Of a stretch of 38,752 nucleotides of DNA, positions 155 through 32,313 are shown one piece after another. The stretch's first letter is position 1. The number at the start of each line of letters is the position of its first letter. This stretch comes from an uncultured Oscillospiraceae bacterium (GTDB lineage Bacteria > Bacillota > Clostridia > Oscillospirales > Oscillospiraceae), in contig CALXDD010000029.1 in NCBI GenBank assembly GCA_944386985.1, forward strand, positions 1-38,752, written 5' to 3'. Under the pieces are notes generated by a model. That model worked only from the letters and a program-made list of their open reading frames with translations. It was not told the DNA's origin and did no database searches. A program made the translations under genes and the position numbers.

Positions 155-811
155 TTATTGATTTTCCTTTGACGTCCAGTGGTCGCAGAGGGGACGCAGG
201 GTACAGTGCTCGCAGTCCGGACGACGGGCCACACACACCGCCCGGCCATGGAGCACCATCCGGTGACAGAAGGCGTTGCTCTCCTCCGGGGGGATACACT
301 TGCGCAGCTGCATCTCTACCTTCAGCGGGTCCTTGCTGCCGTCGGTAATCCCCAGAAGCCCGGTGATCCGGATGCAGTGGGTGTCGCAGACGTAGCCCTC
401 CTTGCCGTAGATATCCCCCAAAATGAGGTTGGCGGTCTTCCGGCCCACACCGGGCAGGCGGAGGAGGTCCTCCATGTTGTCCGGCACCTTGCCGCCGTAC
501 TCTGTGAGGAGCATCTGGGCCGCACCCACGATGTCCCTGGCCTTGGCCCGCCAGAAGCCGGTGGAGTGGATGTATTCGCCCACCTCGTCCACATTCGCCC
601 CGGCAAAATCCTCCAAAGTGGGGTAGCGGGCGAAGAGGGCGGGAGTTACCATGTTTACCCGAGCATCGGTGCACTGGGCAGCCAGACGCACAGAAAACAG
701 CAGTTCATAGGCCTTTTTGCTGTCATATTCCAGGGAGCACTCCGCCCCAGGGTAGAGGACCTTCAGTTCCTCAATAATCTGCCGGATCTCTTCCTTGCTT
801 TTCAATCTCAT
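155..811 (-). CDS. nth: Endonuclease III (DNA glycosylase/AP lyase)
   Basis: The 218-residue protein matches the length of bacterial Nth. It excises oxidised pyrimidines from DNA and nicks the abasic site in base excision repair. The helix-hairpin-helix motif LPGVGRKTAN carries the catalytic Lys, the following CDTHC holds the catalytic Asp, and the C-terminus has the iron-sulfur cluster spacing C-x6-C-x2-C-x5-C (CVARRPDCEHCTLRPLC). The start is uncertain. ATG at 811 directly abuts GAGGTG, which is too close for a ribosome site. TTG at 805 (two codons inside) sits 6 nt after GAGGTG and fits better. An extended -10-like TGGTATCAT just upstream (824-832) would exclude the in-frame ATG at 826. 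The gene is divergent from the LURP-one-like gene and ends in a strong terminator. Confidence 0.95.
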   Translation of the reverse strand: MRLKSKEEIRQIIEELKVLYPGAECSLEYDSKKAYELLFSVRLAAQCTDARVNMVTPALFARYPTLEDFAGANVDEVGEYIHSTGFWRAKARDIVGAAQMLLTEYGGKVPDNMEDLLRLPGVGRKTANLILGDIYGKEGYVCDTHCIRITGLLGITDGSKDPLKVEMQLRKCIPPEESNAFCHRMVLHGRAVCVARRPDCEHCTLRPLCDHWTSKENQ

Positions 812-6135: not shown

Positions 6136-7011
6136 ATGAAATTACAATGTACCGATCTTGTGAAGACGTATGGATATCTCAACGCAGTGGACCATGTAGA
6201 TTTGACGCTGGAGCAGGGGAAGATCTATGGACTTATCGGCCGCAACGGGGCGGGGAAGACCACGCTGCTGTCTCTTCTCACCGCCCAGAATCCCGCCACC
6301 TCCGGGGAGGTGGAGCTGGATGGTCAGCGGGTGTGGGAGAACCGGTCTGCCCTGGACCACCTCTGCTTCAGCCGGGAGCTGAACATTTCTCCTGAGACGG
6401 GGCTGGGGAACATTAAGGTAAAGGAATATCTCCGCATCGCCTCCGTCTACTATCCCCACTGGGACGCTGGAATGGCCCAGCGGCTGGTGGCACTGTTCCG
6501 CCTACCGGTGAAAAAGAAGCTTCAGAAGCTGAGCAAGGGCATGCTGTCCATGGTGACGATTGTGGTGGCGCTGGCCAGCAAGGCAGAGTTTACCTTCTTA
6601 GACGAGCCGGTGGCGGGACTGGATGTGGTGGCCCGGGACCAGTTTTACAAACTCCTGCTGGAGGAGTACAGCGCTACCGGCCGCACCTTTGTCATCTCTA
6701 CCCACATCATTGAGGAGGCTGCCGACGTTTTGGAGGAGGTCATCATCCTGCGGGAGGGAAAGCTCCTTATGGTGGAAAACGTCCAGGATCTTTTAGACAG
6801 CGCTCGGTACGTCAGCGGCAGGGCAGAGGAGGTGGACGCTGCTGTTACAGGGCTGGAGATCCACCACGCCGAGTCCATGGGCCGCAGCAAAGGCGTCGCA
6901 GTACTGCTGCGGCAGGGCCAGGCAATTGACGAGAGCCGGGATGTCACCGTCCAGCCCATGAGCCTTCAGAAGGTCTTTGTGGCGCTGTGCGGAGAGGAGG
7001 AGAAGGCATGA
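6136..7011 (+). CDS. ABC transporter ATP-binding protein
   Basis: The 291-residue ATPase has Walker A GRNGAGKTT (residues 35-43), a variant signature LSKGM in place of LSGGQ, Walker B FTFLDEPVAGLD and a switch His in STHIIEE. LSKGM and an extra C-terminal domain of about 70 residues are typical of the ATPases paired with YtrA-type regulators. It would drive the two membrane proteins that follow, probably exporting or removing a lipid or peptide-like compound. AAGGAG precedes ATG, and its stop overlaps the next start by ATGA. Confidence 0.93.
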   Translation: MKLQCTDLVKTYGYLNAVDHVDLTLEQGKIYGLIGRNGAGKTTLLSLLTAQNPATSGEVELDGQRVWENRSALDHLCFSRELNISPETGLGNIKVKEYLRIASVYYPHWDAGMAQRLVALFRLPVKKKLQKLSKGMLSMVTIVVALASKAEFTFLDEPVAGLDVVARDQFYKLLLEEYSATGRTFVISTHIIEEAADVLEEVIILREGKLLMVENVQDLLDSARYVSGRAEEVDAAVTGLEIHHAESMGRSKGVAVLLRQGQAIDESRDVTVQPMSLQKVFVALCGEEEKA

Positions 7012-7667
7012 GAGAAAGAAGCTTTCGATTCTGGCGGCGGTACGCTCTGGAGCTGCTGGGCGTCGGGCTGGGGGCGGCGCTCTTTTTCCTGATAATTTCC
7101 GCTTTGGGAGCACAGCCGGAGGCGCTGACGGGAGTTTTCATGAGCGTCCCCTACTACATAATGATGGGCTGCTCCTTCGCATTGGTCCTGTGTTGCTTTT
7201 CGATCCATATCTCCTATATCCCCCTGGTGCTGGCCATGGGGAGCACCCGACGGGAGGCTTTCTGGGGCTTTCTCCTCTGCCGGACGGCGGTGGTGGTCGT
7301 GGCGGTGGCGCTGTCTCTTCTGGTATGGGCTTTCCTGCCGGGGGACGTGGCCCGGGACGGCAGGAAACTGCTGCCTCTGCTGTGTCTGATCTTGCTTTTG
7401 GCCGCTAATCTTGGCAGCTTGATGGGCCTTATTTACCAGAAGTGGAGGGGCATTGGAGTTGCATTGCTGGCCCTGGTATGCGGCGCTGTGGGCGGCGGCT
7501 GCGCCATGCTGGTCATGTCAGATTCCTATAGCGTACCCCTGTTTCCCAGTCGGATAGGCCCTTTGGGCTGGTGGACAGCTATGGGGACGGTGCTTTGGCT
7601 GCTGATGGCTGCAGCGGACCTGCTGCTCACCAGAAGATCCCTGCGCCGCAGTGAAGTGAAGCTCTAA
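7008..7667 (+). CDS. ABC transporter membrane protein, first subunit
   Basis: The 219-residue protein has about six hydrophobic helices and no recognisable catalytic motif. The start overlaps the ATPase stop (ATGA) and follows GAGGAGG, so the two are translationally coupled. It keeps the MGSTRREAF loop between helices that recurs in ABC-2-type permeases of YtrA operons, and the next gene has the similar SMGQTRRSYL. I infer that it is one half of the membrane channel. The substrate is unknown. Confidence 0.75.
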   Translation: MRERSFRFWRRYALELLGVGLGAALFFLIISALGAQPEALTGVFMSVPYYIMMGCSFALVLCCFSIHISYIPLVLAMGSTRREAFWGFLLCRTAVVVVAVALSLLVWAFLPGDVARDGRKLLPLLCLILLLAANLGSLMGLIYQKWRGIGVALLALVCGAVGGGCAMLVMSDSYSVPLFPSRIGPLGWWTAMGTVLWLLMAAADLLLTRRSLRRSEVKL

Positions 7668-7680
7668 GGGAGGGAATTGT

Positions 7681-8418
7681 ATGAGAGACATCCGCATTGC
7701 TTGCCGCATCTATGTAAAGGACCTGACCTTTCTGGCTGCCTGCGTTGCCGTAGGCTGGGGAATCGGTGTGATCACAGCCCTGCTCTGTATGCACTTTCTC
7801 ATGGAACCGGGAGACGGCTTTGCCACCATTGGTGCTCTCTTTGCCTTTTTCGGTATCGCCATAGGCCTTCTGGCACGAGGTAACCAGAACAGCTGTACCC
7901 GCTATGCCCTGGCTGTCTCCATGGGGCAGACCCGCCGGTCTTACCTCCTGTGGGATTCCCTTGCCAGCTTTTTGGAATGCCTGGTGTTTACCGGAGTGGT
8001 GATCCTCCTGGGGATGGCGGAACGGGGCCTCTATCTCTCCCTCTACCCAGGTGAGGAGGACGTATTGGACTTTATTCAGGTCTTCCTCCGCTACCGCTTC
8101 GCTCTCTGGATCGTCCTGGCCGCCTGTGTGGTTTTTGTATGCCTGGATCTGCTGCTCACCGCCTTGATGCTCCGATTCGGGCGGAAGGGGATGTTTTTCT
8201 TCCTTGTTCCGATCTGGGTCATTACCCTTATCATCAACCCTGCCCTCAATGCAGTGCGGAGCAACCCAGGTTCCCTGATGTCGAAGCTGGGGGAGGGGCT
8301 TATCTGGCTGGGAGGCTTTCTTTACGGAGTAAGCGGTATCATCGCCGGCGCGGCCCTGGTGCTGGTGCTGATGGGAGGCAGCGTCGTATATCTCCTCCGC
8401 GCCCCGGTACGGCTGTAA
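7681..8418 (+). CDS. ABC transporter membrane protein, second subunit
   Basis: The 245-residue protein has about six membrane helices. A loop reading SMGQTRRSYLLWDSLASF parallels MGSTRREAFWGFLLCR of the preceding gene, so the two are probably paralogous half-channels working as a heterodimer with the ATPase. AAGGGAGGG precedes ATG by about 6 nt, and 13 nt separate it from the previous gene. A terminator follows, closing the operon. Confidence 0.75.
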   Translation: MRDIRIACRIYVKDLTFLAACVAVGWGIGVITALLCMHFLMEPGDGFATIGALFAFFGIAIGLLARGNQNSCTRYALAVSMGQTRRSYLLWDSLASFLECLVFTGVVILLGMAERGLYLSLYPGEEDVLDFIQVFLRYRFALWIVLAACVVFVCLDLLLTALMLRFGRKGMFFFLVPIWVITLIINPALNAVRSNPGSLMSKLGEGLIWLGGFLYGVSGIIAGAALVLVLMGGSVVYLLRAPVRL

Positions 8419-8437
8419 CCTCTAATCTGGATCAATA

Positions 8438-8480
8438 TGCCTGCGACAGTGGGATTCTCCGCTTTCGCAGGCACTTTTTT
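8438..8480 (+). terminator. Terminator of the GntR-ABC operon
   Basis: TGCCTGCGA pairs with TCGCAGGCA (9 bp, loop of about 18 nt) and is followed by CTTTTTTG. Confidence 0.8.
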
Positions 8481-8527
8481 GTTCAGAAGCATTCAACCCT
8501 CCCAAAACCTGCGCTGGATTTTCTATG

Positions 8528-8574
8528 TGCCCACATATTGACAGAGCCAAAATACCTGCTACAATATCTTGTGC
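8528..8574. promoter_or_regulatory. Tandem NrdR boxes of the ribonucleotide reductase gene
   Basis: Box 2 (8559-8574, CTACAATATCTTGTGC) matches 12 of 16 positions of the NrdR consensus acaCwAtATaTwGtgt, and box 1 (8528-8543, TGCCCACATATTGACA) matches 8 of 16, including all the core positions. The boxes are exactly 31 bp apart, about three helical turns, as in known NrdR box pairs. They overlay the -35 and -10, so binding would block transcription. Confidence 0.75.
8538..8565 (+). promoter_or_regulatory. Promoter of nrdJ
   Basis: TTGACA (8538-8543), a 16-bp spacer and TACAAT (8560-8565). Both elements are embedded in the NrdR boxes. It is the only strong promoter between the ABC-operon terminator and the reductase gene. 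Confidence 0.75.
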
Positions 8575-8641
8575 TGGCTGTTCGCCGCCGGAGAGCGGCG
8601 TTGGAATACAAAATACGAAGGAAGCAGAGAGGAAGAAGAAT

Positions 8642-10960
8642 ATGCCTATTTCCAAAAATGCCCAGGCGGTGCTGGAGCGGCGCTACCTGATTCGGGACGA
8701 GCAGGGGAAGCCCATTGAGACAGTGGACGGCCTTTTTCATCGGGTAGCCGATGCCATTGCCGCAGCGGATGCCGTCTTTGATCCAAAGGCGGATATAGCC
8801 GCTACGGCGGAAACTTTCTATCAGATGATGACGGAGCTGGAGTTCCTGCCCAACTCTCCCACCCTGATGAACGCCGGCCGTCCTCTTGGACAGCTGTCCG
8901 CCTGCTTTGTGCTGCCGGTAGGGGACTCCATGGAGGAGATCTTTGATGCCATCAAGAACGCTGCACTGATCCACAAGAGCGGCGGCGGCACAGGCTTTTC
9001 CTTCTCGCGGCTGCGGCCCAACGGCTCCACGGTGAACTCCACCGGCGGCGTGGCCAGCGGCCCCATCTCCTTTATGAAGGTGTTCAACGCTGCCACCGAG
9101 GCGGTGAAGCAGGGCGGCACCCGCCGGGGCGCCAATATGGGAATCCTCCGGGTAGACCACCCTGATATCATGAATTTCATCACCTGCAAGAACGACACCA
9201 AGGAGATCACCAACTTCAATATCTCTGTGGGTATCACCGAGGCCTTTATGAAGGCGGTGGAGCACAACCAGGAGTACGATCTGGTGAACCCCGCCACCAA
9301 GGAGGTTACCGGGCGGCTGAAGGCCAAGGAAGTCTTCGACACCATTGTCAACTCCGCATGGCAGACCGGCGAGCCGGGCATCATCTTTCTGGACCGCCTG
9401 AACCGGGACAATGTGGTGCCCGGGGTGGGAGAGATTGAATCCACCAACCCCTGTGGGGAGCAGCCCCTGCTGCCCTATGAGGCCTGCAACCTGGGGTCCA
9501 TCAACCTGGTGCGGCACTTGAAGAAGACGGAGAACGGCTATGCGGTAGACTGGGAGAAACTGGATGATACCGTAGACAAGGCGGTCCACTTCTTGGACAA
9601 CGTCATTGAAGTCAACCAGTACCCCCTGCCGGAGATCGACAAGATGACTCGGGCTACCCGGAAGATCGGCCTTGGCGTCATGGGTTTTGCCGATATGCTG
9701 CTATATCTGGGTGTGCCCTATAACAGCAGTGAGGGCGTGGAGCTGGGCCGCCGGATTATGGAGCGGATCAACAGCCGGGGCCACGAGGCCAGCCGGAAGC
9801 TGGCCAAGGTCCGGGGCGCCTTCCCTCTCTTTGCCGAGAGTACGCTGAAAAATGAGGAGCCCATCCGCAACGCTACGGTTACCACCATTGCTCCCACCGG
9901 CACTCTGTCCATTATTGCCGGGGTGTCCAGCGGTGTGGAGCCGGTGTTCGCCTATGCCTACATCCGAAATGTCATGGATCATACCCACCTCATTGAGACC
10001 AACCAGATCCTCAAGGACAAGCTGGTGGAGGAGGGACTCTACTCCGAAGAGCTGATGCAGCAGATTGTGGACCACGGTACCTTGGCCCATGTGGACGGCA
10101 TCCCTCAGGAGATCAAGCGGGTCTTCGTCTGCGCCCACGACGTGTCCCCGGTATGGCATGTACGGATGCAGGCCGCCTTCCAGGAGTATACGGACAACGC
10201 CGTTAGCAAGACGGTGAACTTCCCCAACAGTGCTACCCGGGATGACGTGGCCGAGGTGTACCAGCTGGCCTATACGCTTGGCTGTAAAGGAACTACCATT
10301 TACAGAGATGGCAGCCGGGATGAGCAGGTTCTGAATATCAAAAGGGTCAACGATGGCAAGATGGAGGTCGCTGGGGCAAAGACTGCTCCGAAGCCGGCAG
10401 AGGATCCAAAGCCCAAGGTAGCCTGCCCAGGCCACATCGAAGGGGATTACGGTCGTCTGCTGCCTCGTCCCCGTCCGGAGGTCACCACTGGCTTTACGGA
10501 GAAGGTGCGCATTGGCTGCGGCAATCTGTATATCACCGTCAACTATGATGAGCAGGGGATCTGCGAGGTATTTACCAATACCGGCCGTGCCGGCGGATGT
10601 CCCAGCCAGAGCGAGGCCACAGCCCGCTTGGTCTCTGTAGCCATCCGCAGCGGCATGGACCCCAAGGAGATCATCCAGCAGCTCAAGGGCATCCGCTGCC
10701 CCTCCTGCCTGCGGCAGCCGGGCGTGCCGGTGATGAGCTGCCCCGATGCCATTGCCAAGAGCCTGGAAAAGGTTATCAAGGCTACCCAGGGATGCACCAT
10801 TCCCGCCGCTATCCCGGTGCTGCCCACGCCTTCCGCCAAGCGGGATATCTCTCCGGCGGAGGCCAAGCTGGCCAAGTTCTGCCCTGAGTGCGGCAGCAAG
10901 CTGGAGCATGAAGGCGGCTGCGTCACCTGCCGCAACTGCGGATACTCCAAATGCGGCTGA
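8642..10960 (+). CDS. nrdJ: Adenosylcobalamin-dependent (class II) ribonucleoside-diphosphate reductase
   Basis: The 772-residue enzyme makes deoxyribonucleotides using a B12-derived radical, so it needs neither oxygen nor an activase. Visible family marks are FLPNSPTLMNAG, the substrate-site stretch SACFVLPVGDSMEEIFD, HKSGGGTGFSFSRLRP, and the radical-site motif NPCGEQPLLPYEACNLGS (N269, C271, E273). The C-terminal part has the TSCPD domain (about 614-705, with SCLRQPG) and ends in a zinc-ribbon tail with CPECG and CRNCG, which recharges the active-site disulfide. ATG 8642 is preceded by GAGGAAG, a modest site. There is no small subunit gene, as expected for class II. NrdR boxes cover the promoter. 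Confidence 0.96.
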   Translation: MPISKNAQAVLERRYLIRDEQGKPIETVDGLFHRVADAIAAADAVFDPKADIAATAETFYQMMTELEFLPNSPTLMNAGRPLGQLSACFVLPVGDSMEEIFDAIKNAALIHKSGGGTGFSFSRLRPNGSTVNSTGGVASGPISFMKVFNAATEAVKQGGTRRGANMGILRVDHPDIMNFITCKNDTKEITNFNISVGITEAFMKAVEHNQEYDLVNPATKEVTGRLKAKEVFDTIVNSAWQTGEPGIIFLDRLNRDNVVPGVGEIESTNPCGEQPLLPYEACNLGSINLVRHLKKTENGYAVDWEKLDDTVDKAVHFLDNVIEVNQYPLPEIDKMTRATRKIGLGVMGFADMLLYLGVPYNSSEGVELGRRIMERINSRGHEASRKLAKVRGAFPLFAESTLKNEEPIRNATVTTIAPTGTLSIIAGVSSGVEPVFAYAYIRNVMDHTHLIETNQILKDKLVEEGLYSEELMQQIVDHGTLAHVDGIPQEIKRVFVCAHDVSPVWHVRMQAAFQEYTDNAVSKTVNFPNSATRDDVAEVYQLAYTLGCKGTTIYRDGSRDEQVLNIKRVNDGKMEVAGAKTAPKPAEDPKPKVACPGHIEGDYGRLLPRPRPEVTTGFTEKVRIGCGNLYITVNYDEQGICEVFTNTGRAGGCPSQSEATARLVSVAIRSGMDPKEIIQQLKGIRCPSCLRQPGVPVMSCPDAIAKSLEKVIKATQGCTIPAAIPVLPTPSAKRDISPAEAKLAKFCPECGSKLEHEGGCVTCRNCGYSKCG

Positions 10961-24421: not shown

Positions 24422-24454
24422 GGCGGTGAAGAATCACATCTGATGGAGGGTGCC

Positions 24455-25981
24455 ATGGAACTGCAATTGAAAACAGAGCAATTCACCTATTATGAGGCCA
24501 CAGAGGAGGCTCCGGTCTCCCTGGAGACCACCCAGGAGGCCATTGTCCCCGATAGCTGTGCCGATGTGGAGCGGATCGTGGACACCACCGGCGTTGTATT
24601 GGTACATAGTAAGGATGTGGGGCCGGACGGACGCTTAGAGATCAACGGCGTCATCAAGGCTACGGTGCTCTTCCTTCCGGAGGCGGGGAAGGAGCCTGGG
24701 GCCGTCCATGTCTCCATCCCCTTCCACACCGCAGCGGAGCTGAAAGATGGAGCGGGGCGCTGCGCCGTGCGGGCATGGCTCAGGAGCATCGACTCCCGGC
24801 TGCTGAACCCCCGCAAGATGCTGACAAGGGCTGATCTGCTGCTGGAGATCACCGCTTACCGGCAGAAGACGGTGCAGCTGTGCACCGCCGCGGAGGGGGA
24901 TGAGACCCTCCAGGTGCTGGAGGATCAGGCGGAGACCACTGTCCTCACCGACGTCATGGAGCGGGAGTTTCCCTATGTGGAGGAGATGTCCGTCTCCGCC
25001 AGCCGCCGGGGTATCCGGGAGATTTTGGACAGCAGGACTGTCCTCTTTCCCTCGGAGACCCGGATCATCGGCTCCAAGCTGGTGCTGAAGGGAATTGTCC
25101 GTGGGGAGCTTTTGTGCCGGGATACGGCAGGGGAGGTGTTCCATCTCAGTCAGGAATATCTCTTCTCCCAGATTCTGGAGACCGGGGCCTCCGAGGACAC
25201 CGGCTTTGCCAGGGCTTCCTTTGCCCTCACCGGGTATGAGTACACCATCGGTTCGGAGAACGACCGGGACGACGACCATGTGGTCACCATGTCCCTCCAC
25301 ATCCGCTCCTCCGCGGAGATCCTGGAAAAGAGACGGCTGCGGTTTTTGGCGGACCTCTACAGCCTCAGCCAACATCTGGAGCTGGAGCGGCAGACCTTGT
25401 CGGTGCTGGAGGACACCCGATCCTATACCCGTAAGCAGAATATGCGGGAGATTCTGGAGACAGGAGTGGCGGTACGGCAGGTGGTGGCTGCCTGGGTCCA
25501 GCTGGGACTGTGTCAGCGCCAGCAGGGAGAGGAGGGCGCCGGGGTCCAGATCCCTGTGCAGCTGAAGACCCTGTATCTGGACGAGAACGATCAGCTGCAG
25601 CTGGCGGAGAAAACAGTTCAGGTCCACGGAGAGACTGATGACAGCGCTGCCGGACGGATTGTGGTCTCCTGCCCTGGTGAGGCGGCTTCTGGGCCGGCTC
25701 CAGAGGGAATTGAGGTACGCTTCGCCCTGGAATTTGCCATCGACACGGGCCTGCACACCGACAAGCTGTGTATCGCTCAGGTCAAATGCAGTGAACAGCC
25801 GGAGGAGGAAGACGCTATGCCCTCTATCGTGCTGCGGAAAATTTCCGACGGCACGCGGCTGTGGGATATTGCCAAGCAGTACCGCACTACCGGTGCGGAT
25901 ATTCTGGCCGCCAACGCTATGGAGAGCGAGGACGCACTGAACGGCGACAAGCTGATTTTGATTCCCCGGCACCGGGTATAA
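24455..25981 (+). CDS. sipL: SipL-like spore coat protein (DUF3794/SPOCS and LysM domains)
   Basis: The 508-residue protein carries repeated DUF3794 (SPOCS) segments over about residues 20-430. A C-terminal LysM domain starts at about 455 (ISDGTRLWDIAKQYRTTGADI, then AANAMESEDALNGDKLILIP). In C. difficile SipL has this architecture; its LysM domain binds the SpoIVA ATPase and is required for coat attachment around the forespore. ATG 24455 follows GGAGG by 5 nt; an ATG at 24443 has no ribosome site. It is downstream of spoVM and spoIVA lies about 9 kb away, so both SpoIVA partners and SpoIVA are in this window. A second function (binding peptidoglycan) is possible. Confidence 0.85.
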   Translation: MELQLKTEQFTYYEATEEAPVSLETTQEAIVPDSCADVERIVDTTGVVLVHSKDVGPDGRLEINGVIKATVLFLPEAGKEPGAVHVSIPFHTAAELKDGAGRCAVRAWLRSIDSRLLNPRKMLTRADLLLEITAYRQKTVQLCTAAEGDETLQVLEDQAETTVLTDVMEREFPYVEEMSVSASRRGIREILDSRTVLFPSETRIIGSKLVLKGIVRGELLCRDTAGEVFHLSQEYLFSQILETGASEDTGFARASFALTGYEYTIGSENDRDDDHVVTMSLHIRSSAEILEKRRLRFLADLYSLSQHLELERQTLSVLEDTRSYTRKQNMREILETGVAVRQVVAAWVQLGLCQRQQGEEGAGVQIPVQLKTLYLDENDQLQLAEKTVQVHGETDDSAAGRIVVSCPGEAASGPAPEGIEVRFALEFAIDTGLHTDKLCIAQVKCSEQPEEEDAMPSIVLRKISDGTRLWDIAKQYRTTGADILAANAMESEDALNGDKLILIPRHRV

Positions 25982-25986
25982 GAATA

Positions 25987-26034
25987 ACAAGGAAGCCGTC
26001 TGGAGTGCTCAACCATTCCAGACGGCTTCCTTGT
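25987..26034. terminator. Long hairpin between convergent sipL and GLUG genes
   Basis: An 18-bp perfect stem (25987-26004 / 26017-26034) has a 12-nt loop. There is no clear T run, but its place between two convergent genes suits a bidirectional terminator. Confidence 0.7.
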
Positions 26035-26040
26035 ATGTAC

Positions 26041-29000
26041 TTATGCCGTGTTTTTTACAGAGTGTTTTCTCCTGTGGTGAATGAGGAGGATCGATCCCAA
26101 AGCCAGGAGAAGGATCATAAGGATAGAAAGCAAAACTGGCAGGAGCAGGCTATTGCGGCTGAGAAGGACAATCTGTCCCTGGGCAGCGGTCTCCCACACC
26201 AGATAGCTCCCGTCCGTCTCCGCTTCCGCCAGCTGCCATCCCTGGTCTGTGAGAACAGCAGCGGCAGGGGAGGAGGCATCCTGGGCCCTGAGCCGGAGAA
26301 TCACAGTATCCTCATCGCTGCCGGTGACCTTATATTGCCAGGCAGCCACAGCGGTGTAGCCGGAAGGGATATCTTGAGGCAGGGCAATCTCCTCCACTGT
26401 CAAAGCGGCCTCCGGACCGAAGGAGCCCTCTGCCAGAAGAATGGGGATATCTCCGCCGGAGGACAGAGTTGCCAAGGGCTGGGAAAACTGGGCTTCCAGC
26501 ACCAGAGAACGGCGCAGGCCTGTGGTAGGGAAGTCGGGCCACTGGCCGTACTCCCCATTTTGCTGGGGGGGCTGGGGGACTTGGGTGAGGTCCAAATCCT
26601 CTCCGTAGGAGAAGGGAATCTCCGCTACCGTCTTCCCGTTCGCCGTGAAGCGGTAGGAGAATTGGAGAAAATCTTTGGGAATATAGGAAAGCTGGGAGAA
26701 CTCCTCAAAGGACAGACCTTGAGCGGCGGCTGCGTAGTCCACGCCGTCCACCCCCGCCAGATCCTCCATAAGATACCGGTTGCCGCTGAGCTGCTCATCC
26801 GCCTCTCCGGCGATGGCGCCCCGGCATTCTCCCTCGCCCTGAGCGGTGACCATGGCCCGGCAGTCGGTGAGCGTGCCCGCCTTACCAGCGATGCCGCCAA
26901 CCCAGCTCTCACCGGTGAGATCCACGAGGGATGCACAGCGCAGGACAGTGCCCTTGGTCTGTCCGGTGATGCCTCCGCAGTAATCCGTCCCCGTCTCCAC
27001 GGAGCAGCGGGCGGCGCAGTCGATGATGGCGCCTAATTCGCAGCGCCCGGCGATGCCGCCGCCGCTGTCGTTTTTAACTATGATTGAGCCGTCAAACCGG
27101 CAATCACGGATCACGGCCCGCACCGTGGCGGTCACATCGGAGAGAAGTTCCAGATCGTCCAGATTCCAGGTCTCCTCAGGATCGTCGCTCACCACCGGGA
27201 ACACGCCCCCGGCAATGCCGCCGGTGTTGCTGTCGCCGTTGACGGTACAGGAGGACTGGCAGCCGGACACCAATCCGGGTCCCTCTGTGACGTCCTCGCT
27301 CAGTTCCGTAACGGTGATCTCCGGCTCACGGCCCAGGTCGTAAATGTTCTGGCGCACCTGCTGCAGCAGTCGGAGGATGGCGGAGGAGGAGCTGTGAAGG
27401 GCGGCGTTATCCGCACCCGCCCGGTCTGTCATGTCCTGAATCTGGTCCTGAATCACCGTCAGCTGGCTGTCGATCCGGTCCATGGTCTCCTGTGTTTTCT
27501 CCCCAAGGGTATCTGTGTAGGACTTTATAAGGGTACGGATGGCTTCGGACTCCTGATCCACTGTATCCAGATGGCGGGAGACAGCCGACGACAGTGCATT
27601 TCCGGCACTTGTCAGGTTGGTCAGAGCACTGTGGATACGGTCGGCGGAGCGGTCCATCTCCCGCCAGGCGCTTCCTGCTTGGGCGGACATCTGATCATAA
27701 ATGGCGTTCCACTGGCTGGCCAGCTCCTGCGTCAGAGAAGGAAGCTTTGCAAGGGATGCGGCAATAGCACTGAGATGGCTGGAGACGTCCAAAGTGGGGA
27801 AGGGGAGGGAGAGAGCGCCCTCCACATCTCCCGCCAACAGCCGGGATCGCACATCATCCAGATAACTGCGAAGCTTGCTCAGCTCCGACGCGATGGCGTC
27901 TGTGTGGGAACTGATTTCCTGCACCTGAGTATGGATTTGCGCCAGGGTGCGGTCCAGGGCGTCGATGGAACTGCGAAGACCACTGTCTACGCTGGACGCT
28001 GCGTTTCCCAATGCGTTTCGGAACATCTCCGATTCCTCCAGCAAGGTGTCGATATCACTGCCGGCATCTTCCTGAAAATCGTCCACAGCGGACCGAAGAC
28101 TATCCAGAGCACCGTCGATAGCGGTGAGATGCTGGTCCAGTTCATCAGACATGGCCTGGAAGTCCTGGTGCCCCTCGTTACCGGCGTGGTTTGTTTCGTT
28201 CTGGATGGAGGAGAGGGCGTCGTGGATCACCTGGATGTCTGTCACCCCCTGGTCCGCCATGCCGCTGAGCTGATCAGTGAAGCGCTCCATCTCATCGAAA
28301 AGAGCGGTGAGACTGGTATTCAGGGCATCCATGGGAGAGGGGCTGTAGGTGATGTCGGTATCGGGCGCAAAGAGCCCAACAATTCCGCCCACCTCCTTAC
28401 GGCCCCAAATTTCGCCAGAGTTGGTACAGCCTTGGATGGTACCGGACTGGAGACCGGCGATTCCGCCTACCCGGTAACCCAGATGGAGATACCCCACTTT
28501 TCCGCTGTTGTGGCAGTCGGTGATCGTCCCGTCGGACTGCCCAGCAATTCCGCCGATGTTGATCCCGGCGGTCTCATTGGGATCGGTATTGATGAACCCG
28601 GAATTTCTGCACCCGGTGATGGTTCCCTGATTATTCCCGGCAATCCCGCCGGTACTGGTTTCACCGGAGATAGAAGCAAAATTGCTGCAGTCATCGATCT
28701 GCCCGCTGTTATAGCCAACAACACCGCCCACCTCTTCTTTGGCGGTAACGATGCCCCGCACGGTGCAGCCGCGGATGATGCCATCGTTCTCGCCGGCGAT
28801 AAGCCCCGCTTGGCAGGCGGTGCCCCCCGGCTCCACATGGCCGTCCACCATCAGGTTCTCCACCACTGCGGATTCCTTCAGTGTGCGGAAGAGACCCACT
28901 CGGGAGCCCTTACCTTGGAAATCCACTCCCTGGATGGTATGGCCATTGCCGTGGAAAGTGCCCTGGAAGAGAGGAACGCCGGAAAAGTCCGTATCAGAAA

Positions 29001-29193
29001 GGTCCAGATTGGCGGTAAGCTCTACGGTAACGCCAAGGGACCATACATCTCGAATACAGTTCTGGGCAAATTCCAGAAAATCCTCCTCGTTTCGGATGAT
29101 GACGGTCTGTCCCTCCGCCCATACAGCAGGGGAGAAGGACAGGAGCAGAAGGAGAGACATCACTGCCGCTCCGATTCGTTTTCTGTTTCGCAT
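26041..29193 (-). CDS. Surface protein with GLUG-type repeats interrupted by a long coiled coil, C-terminal membrane anchor
   Basis: This is a 1050-residue exported protein. Residues 1-26 are a signal peptide ending AVWA. About 95-275 contains at least five GLUG-like repeats (GGIAGNNQGTITGCRNSG, GGIAGQSDGTITDCHNSG and others), which usually form a right-handed beta-helix. Residues about 285-620 are a helical coiled-coil region resembling long adaptor or YhgE-type helices. A second GLUG block runs from about 645 to 800. A beta-rich region and one membrane helix (about 1015-1038) with a basic tail HHRRKHSVKNTA end the chain. It overlaps the MMPL transporter gene by 34 nt, with AAGGAGGAG before ATG 29193. 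I infer an extracellular partner of that transporter; the fold is predicted and no family with this order is known to me. Confidence 0.85.
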   Translation of the reverse strand: MRNRKRIGAAVMSLLLLLSFSPAVWAEGQTVIIRNEEDFLEFAQNCIRDVWSLGVTVELTANLDLSDTDFSGVPLFQGTFHGNGHTIQGVDFQGKGSRVGLFRTLKESAVVENLMVDGHVEPGGTACQAGLIAGENDGIIRGCTVRGIVTAKEEVGGVVGYNSGQIDDCSNFASISGETSTGGIAGNNQGTITGCRNSGFINTDPNETAGINIGGIAGQSDGTITDCHNSGKVGYLHLGYRVGGIAGLQSGTIQGCTNSGEIWGRKEVGGIVGLFAPDTDITYSPSPMDALNTSLTALFDEMERFTDQLSGMADQGVTDIQVIHDALSSIQNETNHAGNEGHQDFQAMSDELDQHLTAIDGALDSLRSAVDDFQEDAGSDIDTLLEESEMFRNALGNAASSVDSGLRSSIDALDRTLAQIHTQVQEISSHTDAIASELSKLRSYLDDVRSRLLAGDVEGALSLPFPTLDVSSHLSAIAASLAKLPSLTQELASQWNAIYDQMSAQAGSAWREMDRSADRIHSALTNLTSAGNALSSAVSRHLDTVDQESEAIRTLIKSYTDTLGEKTQETMDRIDSQLTVIQDQIQDMTDRAGADNAALHSSSSAILRLLQQVRQNIYDLGREPEITVTELSEDVTEGPGLVSGCQSSCTVNGDSNTGGIAGGVFPVVSDDPEETWNLDDLELLSDVTATVRAVIRDCRFDGSIIVKNDSGGGIAGRCELGAIIDCAARCSVETGTDYCGGITGQTKGTVLRCASLVDLTGESWVGGIAGKAGTLTDCRAMVTAQGEGECRGAIAGEADEQLSGNRYLMEDLAGVDGVDYAAAAQGLSFEEFSQLSYIPKDFLQFSYRFTANGKTVAEIPFSYGEDLDLTQVPQPPQQNGEYGQWPDFPTTGLRRSLVLEAQFSQPLATLSSGGDIPILLAEGSFGPEAALTVEEIALPQDIPSGYTAVAAWQYKVTGSDEDTVILRLRAQDASSPAAAVLTDQGWQLAEAETDGSYLVWETAAQGQIVLLSRNSLLLPVLLSILMILLLALGSILLIHHRRKHSVKNTA

Positions 29194-31634
29194 GGGATCT
29201 CCTCCTTCTGTACTTCGGCAGAGATGTGGCGCTTGCTTTCAATAAGGGCGTCGATGTTGCCGTGGATGACGCCCTTGATCTCGCCGTCGATAAAGGCATC
29301 CACATGGCCGCGGATGTGGCCATCCAACCGCATGGTTCCATTCTGGAACCGCTGCTTGTGGTCCCGGTTGAGGGTGATGGCCGTCCGCTCAATCAGCGTG
29401 TCGCCCAGCAGCAAAAGCTGGGGCAGCACTGTCATGACCAGTACGATGGAGGTGACGGTCCCCCGGCCCAGGGTCTGGCCTACGGAGCCGATGGTGGCGT
29501 CAGTGGAGATGCCGCCGATGAGGAAGCCTGCCACCGCCATGATGGTACCGGAGGTGAGGATGGTGGGGAAGCTCTGGTTCAGTGCCTCCACCACCGCATC
29601 TTTTCTGTCCATCTGGTTCTTCAATTCCATGTATCGGTTGGTGATGACGATGGCGTAGTCGATGGTGGCGCCCATCTGGATGGAGCTGACTACCAGGTAG
29701 CTCAGGAAGAAGAGATTGGTGCTGGTGAGGACCGGCACGGAGAAGTTGATCCAGATGGAACCCTGGATGGTAAGTACCAGCAAAATAGGCAGTCCGGCAG
29801 ATTTGAAGGTGAAGAGCAGGATCACCATAACAAAGAGTGCGGTGAGGATGCTGATCTTCATATTGTCTCCAGAGAAGGAACTGGCCAGATCGAAGGCGTT
29901 GGTGGAATTGCCCACCAGAATCACGTCTTCACCGTAGTAGCCCTGGGCAATGGCGCGAATCCGGTCCAAAAGGGCATAGGTCTCTTCGCCCTCCTCGGGG
30001 ACGTCCGCCACGAAAACCAGCCGGGACCAGTTGTCACCCCGAAGCTGGCTGAGACCGATGTCCAGCTGCTCCCGGAGATCCTCAACCTTCTCCTCCTGCT
30101 CCTCAGTCAGGGAGACCACGCCCTTGTCTTTCTGCTCCAGCAGAAACTCAAAGACATCAATAAGGGGCACATAGTAGTCGTCTGGGTCCTGAAAGATCGC
30201 GCCATACTCCTCCACACTGAGACCGTAGGCTTGGTAGAGGAGTTGGGCCAGTTCCACATCCACTCCCGCCAACTCTGCGAACTGTCGGGGGTTCATTTTG
30301 TCGGTGAGCATTCGCCCATCTTCAATCTCAATATTGGCAAGACCGGTAGCGGAGGTGACCTCCTCCAGTGCGCCCACCTGAGTGAGCACCCTCTGCTCCT
30401 TGTCATAGTCTCCCCGGGGAACCAGAACAGCGATGGTGTTCTTTTCCCCAAAGGTATCCGCCACCTTCTCGTTGGCGATGCGCCACTCCGGCTTGTTGTG
30501 GAAGTCAGTGTCGTTGGTGGAAAATACATAATCGCATCGGGCAGACAGCACTGCCGCCACTACAATCACCACCAGGAAGAGGGGAGGGAGCACATACCGC
30601 AGCTTGATCACACCCTTGCCCCACCAGGTGATGCGGGGTACCAAATTCTTGTGGCGGGTCCGTTCGATAGGACGGTTGAAGAGCATCAGGAGGCCGGGCA
30701 TCAGGAGAAAGACGCACAGCATACTGAAGACGATTCCTTTGGCCAGAACGATGCCCATATCAAATCCGATCCGCAGCTGCATGAGCATCAGAGCCACCAG
30801 TCCGGAGATAGTAGTAAGGCTGGAGGAGGAGATCTCCACGATAGCCTTGCTCAAAGCAGCGATATCTGCCTCACGGGCGGGAAGGCCGTTGTCCCGTTCT
30901 TCCATGTATCGATGGCAGAAGATGATGGCGTAGTCGATGGCCAGGGCCAGCTGCAGCACCACGGCAATGGAGTTGGTAATGAACGAAATGGTGCCGAAAA
31001 TAAAGTTGGTACCCATATTCAAAACCGCTGCTACCACAAATACGATGAGGTAAACCGGAACCTCCATATAGCTTTTGGAGGTAAACAACAGTACCACCAC
31101 GATGACCACCGCGGCAATGAGCAGAATCACCGTCATCTCCTTTTGGAGGCTGGCGGAGGTATCCTGCCCTACGGTAGAGGAGATGTACACATCCCAGCCC
31201 TCCAGCTCCTGTCGAATGTCCTCCATCGCAGCAATGGCCTTGGGATCGGTTTCCGGGGTGTCAAAGGAGACGGAAAAAAGAGCGGAGGCATTGGTGTAGT
31301 GTTCCGGTGTGTCGTCAAAGGTTACCTCGGAGACACAGGGGATCTGGGCCAGACGGTCCGCCAGCTCCCGGGCTGTATCCACGGTAATATTGGCAACCAT
31401 CACATTGGCGCTGCCTAAGGTGACAAACTCCTCGTCCATGATGGTAAGGCCTCGGCGAGTTTCTGTCTCGGCGGGGAGATAGGAGGTAATATCGTTGTTG
31501 ATCTGTACCTTGTTGATGGAGGCGGCACAAAAGAGAAAGGAGGCAAAGAAGATCAGATAGAACGCCTTTCTCTTGTCAACGATGAACCTCGCTGTCTTGG
31601 TCATCACATTTTCTGATTGCTTTTCCTGCTGCAT
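29160..31634 (-). CDS. MMPL/RND (HAE3-like) family transporter with bactofilin-like tail
   Basis: The 824-residue protein has about 12 membrane helices in two halves, with a large extracellular loop in each half (about 45-165 and 395-540). Paired Asp-Tyr motifs in the membrane (LALAIDYAIIF and MGATIDYAIVI) match the proton-relay positions of MmpL proteins, so it is a proton-driven exporter, probably of lipid-like or amphipathic molecules. The cytoplasmic C-terminus (about 765-800) has short repeats, GTMRLDGHIRGHVDAFIDG then EIKGVIHGNIDALIE, like those of bactofilins. The start ATG 31634 follows GAGAGGAT. It is 15 nt after the TetR gene and overlaps the GLUG protein gene, so the three form one operon. 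Confidence 0.9.
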   Translation of the reverse strand: MQQEKQSENVMTKTARFIVDKRKAFYLIFFASFLFCAASINKVQINNDITSYLPAETETRRGLTIMDEEFVTLGSANVMVANITVDTARELADRLAQIPCVSEVTFDDTPEHYTNASALFSVSFDTPETDPKAIAAMEDIRQELEGWDVYISSTVGQDTSASLQKEMTVILLIAAVVIVVVLLFTSKSYMEVPVYLIVFVVAAVLNMGTNFIFGTISFITNSIAVVLQLALAIDYAIIFCHRYMEERDNGLPAREADIAALSKAIVEISSSSLTTISGLVALMLMQLRIGFDMGIVLAKGIVFSMLCVFLLMPGLLMLFNRPIERTRHKNLVPRITWWGKGVIKLRYVLPPLFLVVIVVAAVLSARCDYVFSTNDTDFHNKPEWRIANEKVADTFGEKNTIAVLVPRGDYDKEQRVLTQVGALEEVTSATGLANIEIEDGRMLTDKMNPRQFAELAGVDVELAQLLYQAYGLSVEEYGAIFQDPDDYYVPLIDVFEFLLEQKDKGVVSLTEEQEEKVEDLREQLDIGLSQLRGDNWSRLVFVADVPEEGEETYALLDRIRAIAQGYYGEDVILVGNSTNAFDLASSFSGDNMKISILTALFVMVILLFTFKSAGLPILLVLTIQGSIWINFSVPVLTSTNLFFLSYLVVSSIQMGATIDYAIVITNRYMELKNQMDRKDAVVEALNQSFPTILTSGTIMAVAGFLIGGISTDATIGSVGQTLGRGTVTSIVLVMTVLPQLLLLGDTLIERTAITLNRDHKQRFQNGTMRLDGHIRGHVDAFIDGEIKGVIHGNIDALIESKRHISAEVQKEEIPCETENESERQ

Positions 31635-31649
31635 AACTGATCTATCCTC

Positions 31650-32225
31650 TCAAACACTTGGAATAAACCGCTCCAGATTCTCCAGCAGGCGCTCCTCCGG
31701 CACAGGAGTATCACTGCTGAGCCACCAGCGGATCAAGGAAAACATGGCCCCAACATAGAACCGGGCGGCGATCTCTGGATCGCTGCCATGGAGAGCTTGG
31801 CGGAAGTCCGGCTGGCACAGGCGCAGATACAGTTGGCGGGCGGCAGCATCCTCCAGCAGCCGGGCCTCTGTGTCTGCGCCGCTGTCGAGGCAGGCACGGT
31901 AGAGGGCCTTGCGGTCCCGAAAAAAGTGGAGGGCGTTGCGGGATGCTGTCAGGAAAAACTGGCGGGGACTGCCGCTGTCCTCTGGAATGCAAGAGGAGAT
32001 ACACTCATTTTCCATCTGCTGCATCATATATCGCAAAAGCTCCTGTTTGTCGGTGAAATGGGCGTAGAAGGTGGTGCGGTGTACCATGGCCTGCCGGCAG
32101 ACATCACTGACGGACAGTTCCTGAAAGGGGCGTTCCACCATCAGCTTGGCCAGCGCCTCCACCAGACTGTGCCGGGTCTTGCGCTGCCGGAGATCCAGAT
32201 GATCCTGCTTCATTTGTCGTATCAT
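31650..32225 (-). CDS. TetR/AcrR-family regulator of the MMPL operon
   Basis: The 191-residue protein has the TetR DNA-binding helix-turn-helix (LVEALAKLMVERPFQELSVS, then VCRQAMVHRTTFYAHFTDKQELL) and a helical ligand domain of about 130 residues without recognisable identity. ATG 32225 is chosen because AAAGGAG lies 8 nt upstream; the longer frame has no such site. It precedes the MMPL gene by 15 nt and probably represses the operon through the inverted repeat over its own promoter. The inducing ligand is unknown; transporter substrates are usual inducers of such regulators. Confidence 0.9.
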   Translation of the reverse strand: MIRQMKQDHLDLRQRKTRHSLVEALAKLMVERPFQELSVSDVCRQAMVHRTTFYAHFTDKQELLRYMMQQMENECISSCIPEDSGSPRQFFLTASRNALHFFRDRKALYRACLDSGADTEARLLEDAAARQLYLRLCQPDFRQALHGSDPEIAARFYVGAMFSLIRWWLSSDTPVPEERLLENLERFIPSV

Positions 32226-32265
32226 ACGCGCCGCTCCTTTCCTGGCAATCGCTGTTTGCGGGAAC

Positions 32266-32294
32266 ATCATACAGCTTTAGTCTACACTTGTCAA
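32266..32294 (-). promoter_or_regulatory. Promoter of the TetR-MMPL-GLUG operon
   Basis: On the minus strand TTGACA (32294-32289), a 17-bp spacer and TATGAT (32271-32266) form a near-consensus sigma-A promoter about 40 nt before the TetR start. Confidence 0.85.
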
Positions 32295-32313
32295 GATAAA
32301 AGACATCTGTAGA
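32281..32313. promoter_or_regulatory. Inverted repeat over the TetR promoter, probable operator
   Basis: TCTACACTTGTC and GACATCTGTAGA (arms match at 10 of 12 positions, 9-bp centre) surround and include the -35 box. This fits a TetR operator. Each arm also resembles a BlaI TACA-NN-TGTA site with one core mismatch. Confidence 0.55.

Follow-up and report, generated by a model that had tools for sequence, protein, structure and literature searches.

A transporter gene of the MMPL family and the gene for a large surface protein, in which two blocks of GLUG repeats flank a long coiled coil, form a conserved pair across genomes. We describe the pair from a stretch of 38,752 nucleotides (nt), hereafter the window, of an uncultured Oscillospiraceae bacterium (assembly GCA_944386985.1, contig CALXDD010000029.1). 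The window is contig C29 of an 83-contig, 2.99-Mb genome with a completeness of 95.5%. Its minus strand carries, in order of transcription, a gene for a TetR-family regulator, the gene for the MMPL/RND transporter (the pump; 29160..31634, 824 amino acids, aa) and the gene for the GLUG/coiled-coil/GLUG protein (the partner; 26041..29193, 1050 aa). The coordinates agree with an earlier note on this DNA, made by a model from the letters alone, which had reported three coupled genes with a 15-nt gap between TetR and MMPL and a 34-nt overlap between MMPL and the GLUG gene. That note treated all three as one system; of this, the MMPL–GLUG pair is conserved and constitutes the core, while the TetR gene is optional. 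Near-universal adjacency, two natural fusions and a parallel, unrelated partner family beside other clostridial MMPLs strongly support the coiled-coil protein as a dedicated partner of the pump. We consider it rather probable that the two form a two-protein exporter, in which the GLUG/coiled-coil protein would serve as the pump's extracellular extension.

Pump and partner occur together across genomes

Named genomes were scanned with a profile of the pump, and analysis centred on the best 80 of 554 confirmed loci, ranked by pump likeness. The partner is present in 79 of the 80: it directly follows the pump on the same strand in 77 and shares the pump's frame in two. At the remaining locus (L144) the contig ends 80 nt past the pump, and several of the partners counted are themselves cut by contig ends. 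Frames of pump and partner overlap by 4 nt in 19 of the 77 adjacent loci. The records include Oscillospiraceae, Lachnospiraceae, Anaerotignum, Vallitalea, Oceanirhabdus and a Tissierellales metagenome-assembled genome (MAG). The pair occurs in Clostridia from the gut and from elsewhere; Flavonifractor plautii, a gut bacterium, carries it (L107).

The second sample, at the level of the order, comprised 394 genomes including our own, with pump loci counted at more than 900 bits. At 30 of 35 such loci the partner is present: coordinates show it for 29, and the sequence at the end of the contig shows it for G408. The pumps of G054, G163, G352 and G110 have no recognisable partner. Counted from the partner's side, 31 of 35 loci lie beside a pump (matches at 1e-40 or better, with one gene split on two contigs counted once), and G072, G300 and G368 hold partial N-terminal partner matches without an adjoining pump. 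The third sample, at the level of the phylum, comprised 398 genomes, again including our own, with thresholds of E 1e-150 for the pump profile and E 1e-60 for that of the partner. Pump matches were found in six genomes and partner matches in seven, and all seven partners are adjacent to a pump, although in G794 that pump gene is truncated by the contig start.

The earlier note had raised the question of how often a GLUG-coil-GLUG protein lies next to an MMPL gene. With pairing in 79/80, 30/35 and 7/7 loci the protein is not mostly pump-free, and the same counts led us to reject the notion that the two are chance neighbours. A conserved third gene downstream was likewise rejected: no family recurs in more than two of 68 downstream neighbours at E 1e-5.

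Two further observations concern loci that depart from the pattern. In G382 an MMPL of the GLUG-linked subfamily (L181:7825-11340, plus strand) is followed by a different protein of 1171 aa, whose N-terminal part includes a hydrophobic stretch and which may represent a third type of partner. At 6767-10018 on the minus strand, L078 encodes a homolog (33% identity) with the GLUG/coiled-coil architecture in full length; the 16 kb read there contain no MMPL gene.

The two same-frame loci (L139 and L141, both Lachnoclostridium MAGs) encode pump and partner as uninterrupted frames of 2024 and 2036 aa. No convincing ribosome site precedes the signal of the partner in L139, whereas L141 has a GTG with a weak one at that place, so the partner may also be translated separately. 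A mirror-tree correlation between pump and partner (Mantel r 0.91 over 53 pairs; the same nearest neighbour in 27 of 53) was not used as evidence, since species history could produce the same.

The partner: GLUG repeats around a two-arm coiled coil

The partner begins with a hydrophobic stretch (residues 7–25) that, by hydropathy only, fits a signal peptide. Pfam Glug matches the protein at 1.1e-10 (41.6 bits against a cut-off of 20.5), and nine GGIxG-type repeat cores are recognisable, five before the coil and four after it. The N-terminal GLUG repeats span residues ~130–277 (28363..28806, minus strand, as are all the positions in this paragraph); the C-terminal repeats span residues ~640–800 (26794..27276), with cores at 658, 712, 740 and 766. 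Between them lies a coiled coil of about 345 residues (about 280–625; 27319..28356). A single C-terminal transmembrane segment (residues 1020–1038; 26080..26136; hydropathy 3.06) is followed by a basic tail. Apart from the length of the coil, which the earlier note had put at about 335 residues, this is the order of signal peptide, GLUG repeats, coiled coil, GLUG repeats and membrane anchor that it had described.

The periodicity profile divides the coil into two heptad arms with a central break. Heptad-periodicity z is 4.3–9.1 in windows over residues 271–450 and 2.5–7.7 over 451–630, with a dip near residues 440–480 (z 0.9 in window 421–480). Outside the coil z ranges from -1.2 to 2.2 in windows starting before 271; on the C-terminal side it is 3.8 in window 601–660 and thereafter -1.1 to 1.4. 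The break is shared by most of the family: among 68 aligned homologs the weakest periodicity falls at 35%–65% of the coil in 53, and the mean profile has arm peaks of z 6.3 and 5.8 with 2.1 in the middle. Two arms and a central break look like the pattern of an antiparallel hairpin inserted between the GLUG blocks. With a helical rise of 1.5 Å per residue, an arm of 145–170 residues, if one helix, could reach about 22–25 nm, approximately the scale of the wall of a Gram-positive cell.

Mean identity to the window's partner is 47% in the N-terminal GLUG part (residues 30–276) and 35% in the C-terminal part, as against 19% in the coil. By this difference the GLUG parts appear to be the surface of interaction, and the coil a spacer. 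A profile search of the PDB with the partner matched 1505 sequences at E 1 or better; among the 60 matches listed, the best stretches all lie in the coil region (myosin, SMC, chemotaxis receptors and similar proteins) and none lies over the GLUG parts.

The pump

Pfam MMPL matches the pump at E 4.7e-47 (161 bits against a cut-off of 20.5) in two stretches corresponding to its two halves, and the closest solved proteins by sequence are the mycobacterial MmpL4 and MmpL5. The earlier note had pointed to MmpL-type Asp-Tyr pairs in both halves; these are D234-Y235 and D659-Y660, which are invariant across 60 aligned relatives and align with the Asp-Tyr residues of MmpL5. Transmembrane segments assigned by hydropathy place the large extracellular loops at residues ~44–166 and ~366–591. 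Loop 2 has 226 aa in the window, and 224–242 aa in 15 relatives from the subfamily.

A glycine-rich, bactofilin-like repeat lies in the cytoplasmic C-terminal tail of the pump (residues ~764–798; 29241..29345, minus strand). It recurs in the 60 pump tails listed and in 38 that were aligned; the tail itself is missing in L071, a locus with the partner, and in L073, one without. We rejected membership of the bactofilin family: the window's tail scores below the Pfam Bactofilin cut-off (E 0.0036; 18 bits against 27.9), at a threshold as lax as E 1 a match is given by five of 38 tails, and the match to a solved bactofilin has an E of 0.19. Such a tail might let pumps of the GLUG-linked subfamily polymerise or cluster.

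More distant clostridial MMPLs: a second partner family and giant loops

A sample of 33 more distant clostridial MMPL loci was assembled from 13 loci (L080–L092) and 20 more, eight of which were picked for their long frames. Left outside it were weak RND hits with long frames (such as G000:C36, G025:C28, G048:C2, G058:C38 and G010:C46), probably of AcrB type, and pump fragments at contig ends (L074, L077).

All 24 short-loop pumps of the sample are accompanied by a second family of coiled-coil partners, recognised by a profile built from five members. The pumps are MMPLs of ~700 aa (L082–L092, L189, L197–L208), and the partner lies downstream in 22 cases, upstream in one (L082) and in the same frame in one (L189). 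In L189 pump and partner together form a frame of 1412 aa, in which translation of the partner might also begin at an internal ATG ahead of its signal. The profile separates this family from the GLUG proteins: the weakest of its 24 members scores 5.7e-39, and the sole match to a GLUG protein (L072, 2.8e-5) is confined to the coil. Members of the second family comprise an N-terminal signal, a conserved N-domain and a coiled coil. In the eight scanned, an NCBIfam X-X-X-Leu-X-X-Gly repeat was found in six and a Pfam Glug match in none, and the N-domain has no Pfam match in the members scanned. The two families are thus alike in having an N-terminal signal and a coiled coil, in lying next to an MMPL gene and in at least one case of a shared frame; they differ in the lack of a Glug match in the second, whose pumps have a loop 2 of 145–166 aa.

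The other nine pumps (L080, L081 and L190–L196) have a giant extracellular loop of 448–873 aa, which is loop 2 in eight of them and loop 1 in L195. None of the nine has a coiled-coil partner that we could find beside it, with the limit that L081 has only 683 nt of contig past the pump. The loops themselves do not appear to contain a coiled coil: a heptad signal is mostly absent in the eight loop-2 segments profiled, which by eye resemble helical repeats.

An automatic count, which took in the GLUG subfamily and four loci fetched for their missing partner, gave a partner in 0 of 9 long-loop and 29 of 39 short-loop pumps (Fisher p 5.5e-5, a value that overstates the case because the loci are related and were not randomly drawn). 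Reading by hand raises the short-loop figure to 34 of 39, with GLUG partners at L069, L070 and L071, the single frame at L189 and a second-family partner at L201. In this sample, long extensions in cis and partners in trans are complementary. The pump and its extracellular extension look like one functional unit.

Regulator, promoter and boundaries of the transcription unit

The first gene of the unit encodes a regulator with a TetR_N helix-turn-helix domain (2.4e-10; 40.5 bits against a cut-off of 24) and a TetR_C_8 domain (2e-06). A sigma-A type promoter, TTGACA-17-TATGAT (32266..32294, minus strand), matches the consensus at 11 of 12 positions. The open reading frame (31650..32270) opens with an ATG at 32270, but this codon is overlapped by the -10 box. 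Translation most likely starts instead from the ATG at 32225, preceded by AGGAAAGGAG, which gives a protein of 191 aa (31650..32225, minus strand); no other gene boundary is changed.

An operator-like inverted repeat, TCTACAGATGTCTTTTATCTTGACAAGTGTAGA, read from the sequence, surrounds the -35 box (32281..32313, minus strand). The half-sites TCTACA..TGTAGA are kept upstream of TetR: in a 61-bp comparison, nine of 11 relatives exceed the null maximum (33/61), defined as the best of 2200 scores from mononucleotide shuffles. Of the other two, L107 ties with the null maximum and L109 has no match. Relatives keep the -35 box and the operator half-sites, and the -10 box less strictly. The promoter with an operator-like repeat, as originally proposed, is borne out. 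The TetR protein, by analogy a repressor, may bind the operator over the -35 box in this strain, and would presumably respond to the cargo of the pump.

The regulator is not a core component. A profile built in this analysis finds a TetR gene upstream of the pump in only 33 of the 72 loci with room for one, on the same strand in 11 and divergent in 22. Pfam TetR_C_8 is found in 22 of 70 upstream neighbours scanned, a figure that is low partly from wrong-frame gene calls.

Hairpins bracket the unit. A terminator-like hairpin lies upstream (32354-32331), and a very stable one (25987..26034; -37.3 kcal/mol, z -8.65) lies downstream between convergent genes, probably as a two-way terminator. The convergent gene adjoining this shared hairpin (24443-25981, plus strand) encodes SPOCS (SipL) domains and has a weak C-terminal LysM match. 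By this locus the nearest named records, with those of the source genome possibly left out, are uncultured Oscillospiraceae, Flavonifractor and Intestinimonas.

Discussion

Systems of three kinds invite comparison. With the mycobacterial MmpL4, MmpL5 and MmpL10 the pump shares its family, the Asp-Tyr residues in both halves and a long extracellular helical extension. According to the accessible text of PMC12183618, the coiled coil of MmpL10 (residues 480–734) is inserted in loop 2 (residues 409–805) and brings about trimerisation, and in the model it forms a 140-Å tube; as far as the accessible part of PMC12501195 goes, MmpS5L5 is also modelled with a coiled-coil tube. The present system differs from MmpL10 as the accessible text presents it: no long coiled coil is inserted in loop 2, which at ~225 aa (226 in the window) is far shorter, and the coil resides in the separate GLUG protein. 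No MmpS partner appeared in the neighbour tallies of the pump loci, although no search aimed at MmpS was made.

FarE of Staphylococcus aureus, with its regulator FarR, is likewise an MMPL-type RND exporter with a TetR regulator in a monoderm; the accessible portion of PMC12671165 reports that it gives resistance to unsaturated fatty acids and credits it with promoting phospholipid efflux. There FarR is divergently transcribed, whereas in the window TetR is co-directional and first in the unit, and a coiled-coil partner of FarE/FarR is not mentioned in that portion of the article.

Periplasmic adaptors are built of lipoyl and beta-barrel domains. GLUG repeats replace these domains in the partner, whose membrane anchor is, unlike theirs, at the C-terminus. 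The resemblance to adaptors of RND and ABC pumps lies in a membrane-anchored partner with a putative long helical hairpin, encoded with its transporter; adaptors of tripartite pumps occur in some Gram-positives (YknX, MesE), mostly with ABC transporters and also with MFS-type ones, according to the accessible part of PMC4446572.

An adaptor or wall-reaching tube, by analogy with the models of mycobacterial MmpLs, is the best mechanism we can offer for the pair. The MMPL pump, presumably proton-driven through its two Asp-Tyr relays, would export a cargo from the membrane. The cargo may be hydrophobic or amphiphilic, perhaps a lipid – a fair guess because FarE, also an MMPL with a TetR regulator, is linked to fatty-acid resistance and phospholipid efflux. 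The partner would be anchored in the membrane beside the pump, with its GLUG domain seated on the extracellular loops of the pump and a long helical hairpin projecting outward into the cell wall. By oligomerising, it could form a collar or tube that guides the cargo off the membrane. An adaptor-like nature fits the apparent arrangement of a beta-repeat domain interrupted by a helical hairpin, together with the analogy to MmpL tubes.

If the pattern seen in the distant sample is general, then nearly all clostridial MMPLs carry a long extension, either in cis (a giant loop or a fusion) or in trans (one of at least two unrelated coiled-coil families), and the GLUG protein and its pump assemble into a conduit from membrane to wall. 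In a monoderm, such a conduit would be a counterpart to both the tripartite pump and the mycobacterial MmpL tube that evolved independently of them. We advance this wider generalisation only tentatively.

Several observations weigh against an extension or conduit. Conserved neighbours and fusions speak for functional linkage, not for a conduit, and in a monoderm there is no outer membrane at which a conduit could end. Five of the 35 order-level pumps lack a GLUG partner. In 15 of 68 homologs the weakest periodicity lies away from the middle of the coil, coil length between anchor columns ranges from 186 to 586 aa, and L069 has little coil. Lipoyl or beta-barrel adaptor domains were not found in the partner by Pfam or NCBIfam; of the earlier proposal of an adaptor-like or surface-linking partner, the dedicated partnership stands, by adjacency, fusions and the parallel family, and a classical adaptor domain is what the searches fail to supply. 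The counts of pairing are not independent events, as the loci share ancestry and the samples overlap (G032:C8 is the contig of L106), and the similar MAGs of L139 and L141, with their related labels, may record one fusion event.

Some of these points favour a different explanation, in which the partner would be a stalk, an adhesin or a wall linker at the cell surface. It would share a process with the pump, for example one based on a lipid or glycolipid layer that the pump exports, yet would not touch it. Conservation of the coil is low and its length varies, GLUG repeats are common (as weaker repeat matches) to other large proteins of related genomes, and G013 encodes a full-length GLUG protein without a pump beside it. 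Less readily accommodated by such a protein are the two fused pump–partner frames and the one of the second family, the 34-nt overlap in the window and the 4-nt overlaps elsewhere, the pairing in all but one of the best 80 of 554 loci, and the failure to find a partner where the pump has a giant loop of its own. We regard a contact-free surface protein as unlikely, if the strongest of the competing accounts.

The partner could instead dock on the pump and act there as an extracellular lipid carrier, chaperone or gate, taking cargo or regulating export with no tube involved. The conserved part of the protein is indeed the GLUG domain and not the coil, and the envelope is that of a monoderm: consistent with this, no Omp85 match was found in our own genome, which is 95.5% complete. 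Set against these points, the two heptad arms and the recurrence of long extensions, whether in cis or in trans, suggest that the partner extends the pump structurally, and a docked carrier of this kind seems to us distinctly improbable. An ordinary TetR-regulated drug or fatty-acid exporter with an incidental surface gene as neighbour has a precedent in the TetR and MMPL of S. aureus (PMC12671165, in its accessible part), but is already disfavoured, and very improbable, given fused frames and a surface gene that is a far more constant neighbour (79 of the best 80 of 554) than TetR (33 of 72 loci with room).

The preferred reading thus remains that of a pump with a dedicated extracellular extension. 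The component families are each known; for the pairing, for the GLUG/coiled-coil accessory and for the cis/trans pattern we found no earlier description in the open-access literature searched. Among the matches listed, the titles and opening lines of abstracts describe neither the pump–GLUG pair nor the second partner family, in line with the earlier statement that no described family has this gene order.

MmpL pumps have been studied mainly in mycobacteria, where a built-in coiled-coil tube presumably conveys cargo in the direction of the outer layer. Clostridia, which have no outer membrane, pair the same type of pump with dedicated coiled-coil partners, which are apparently dispensed with where a giant loop is part of the pump itself. 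This raises the question of why a pump in a cell with one membrane should need a long extension. The pairs described here are testable in gut bacteria such as Flavonifractor plautii, and offer a second evolutionary solution for comparison with MmpL4, MmpL5 and MmpL10.

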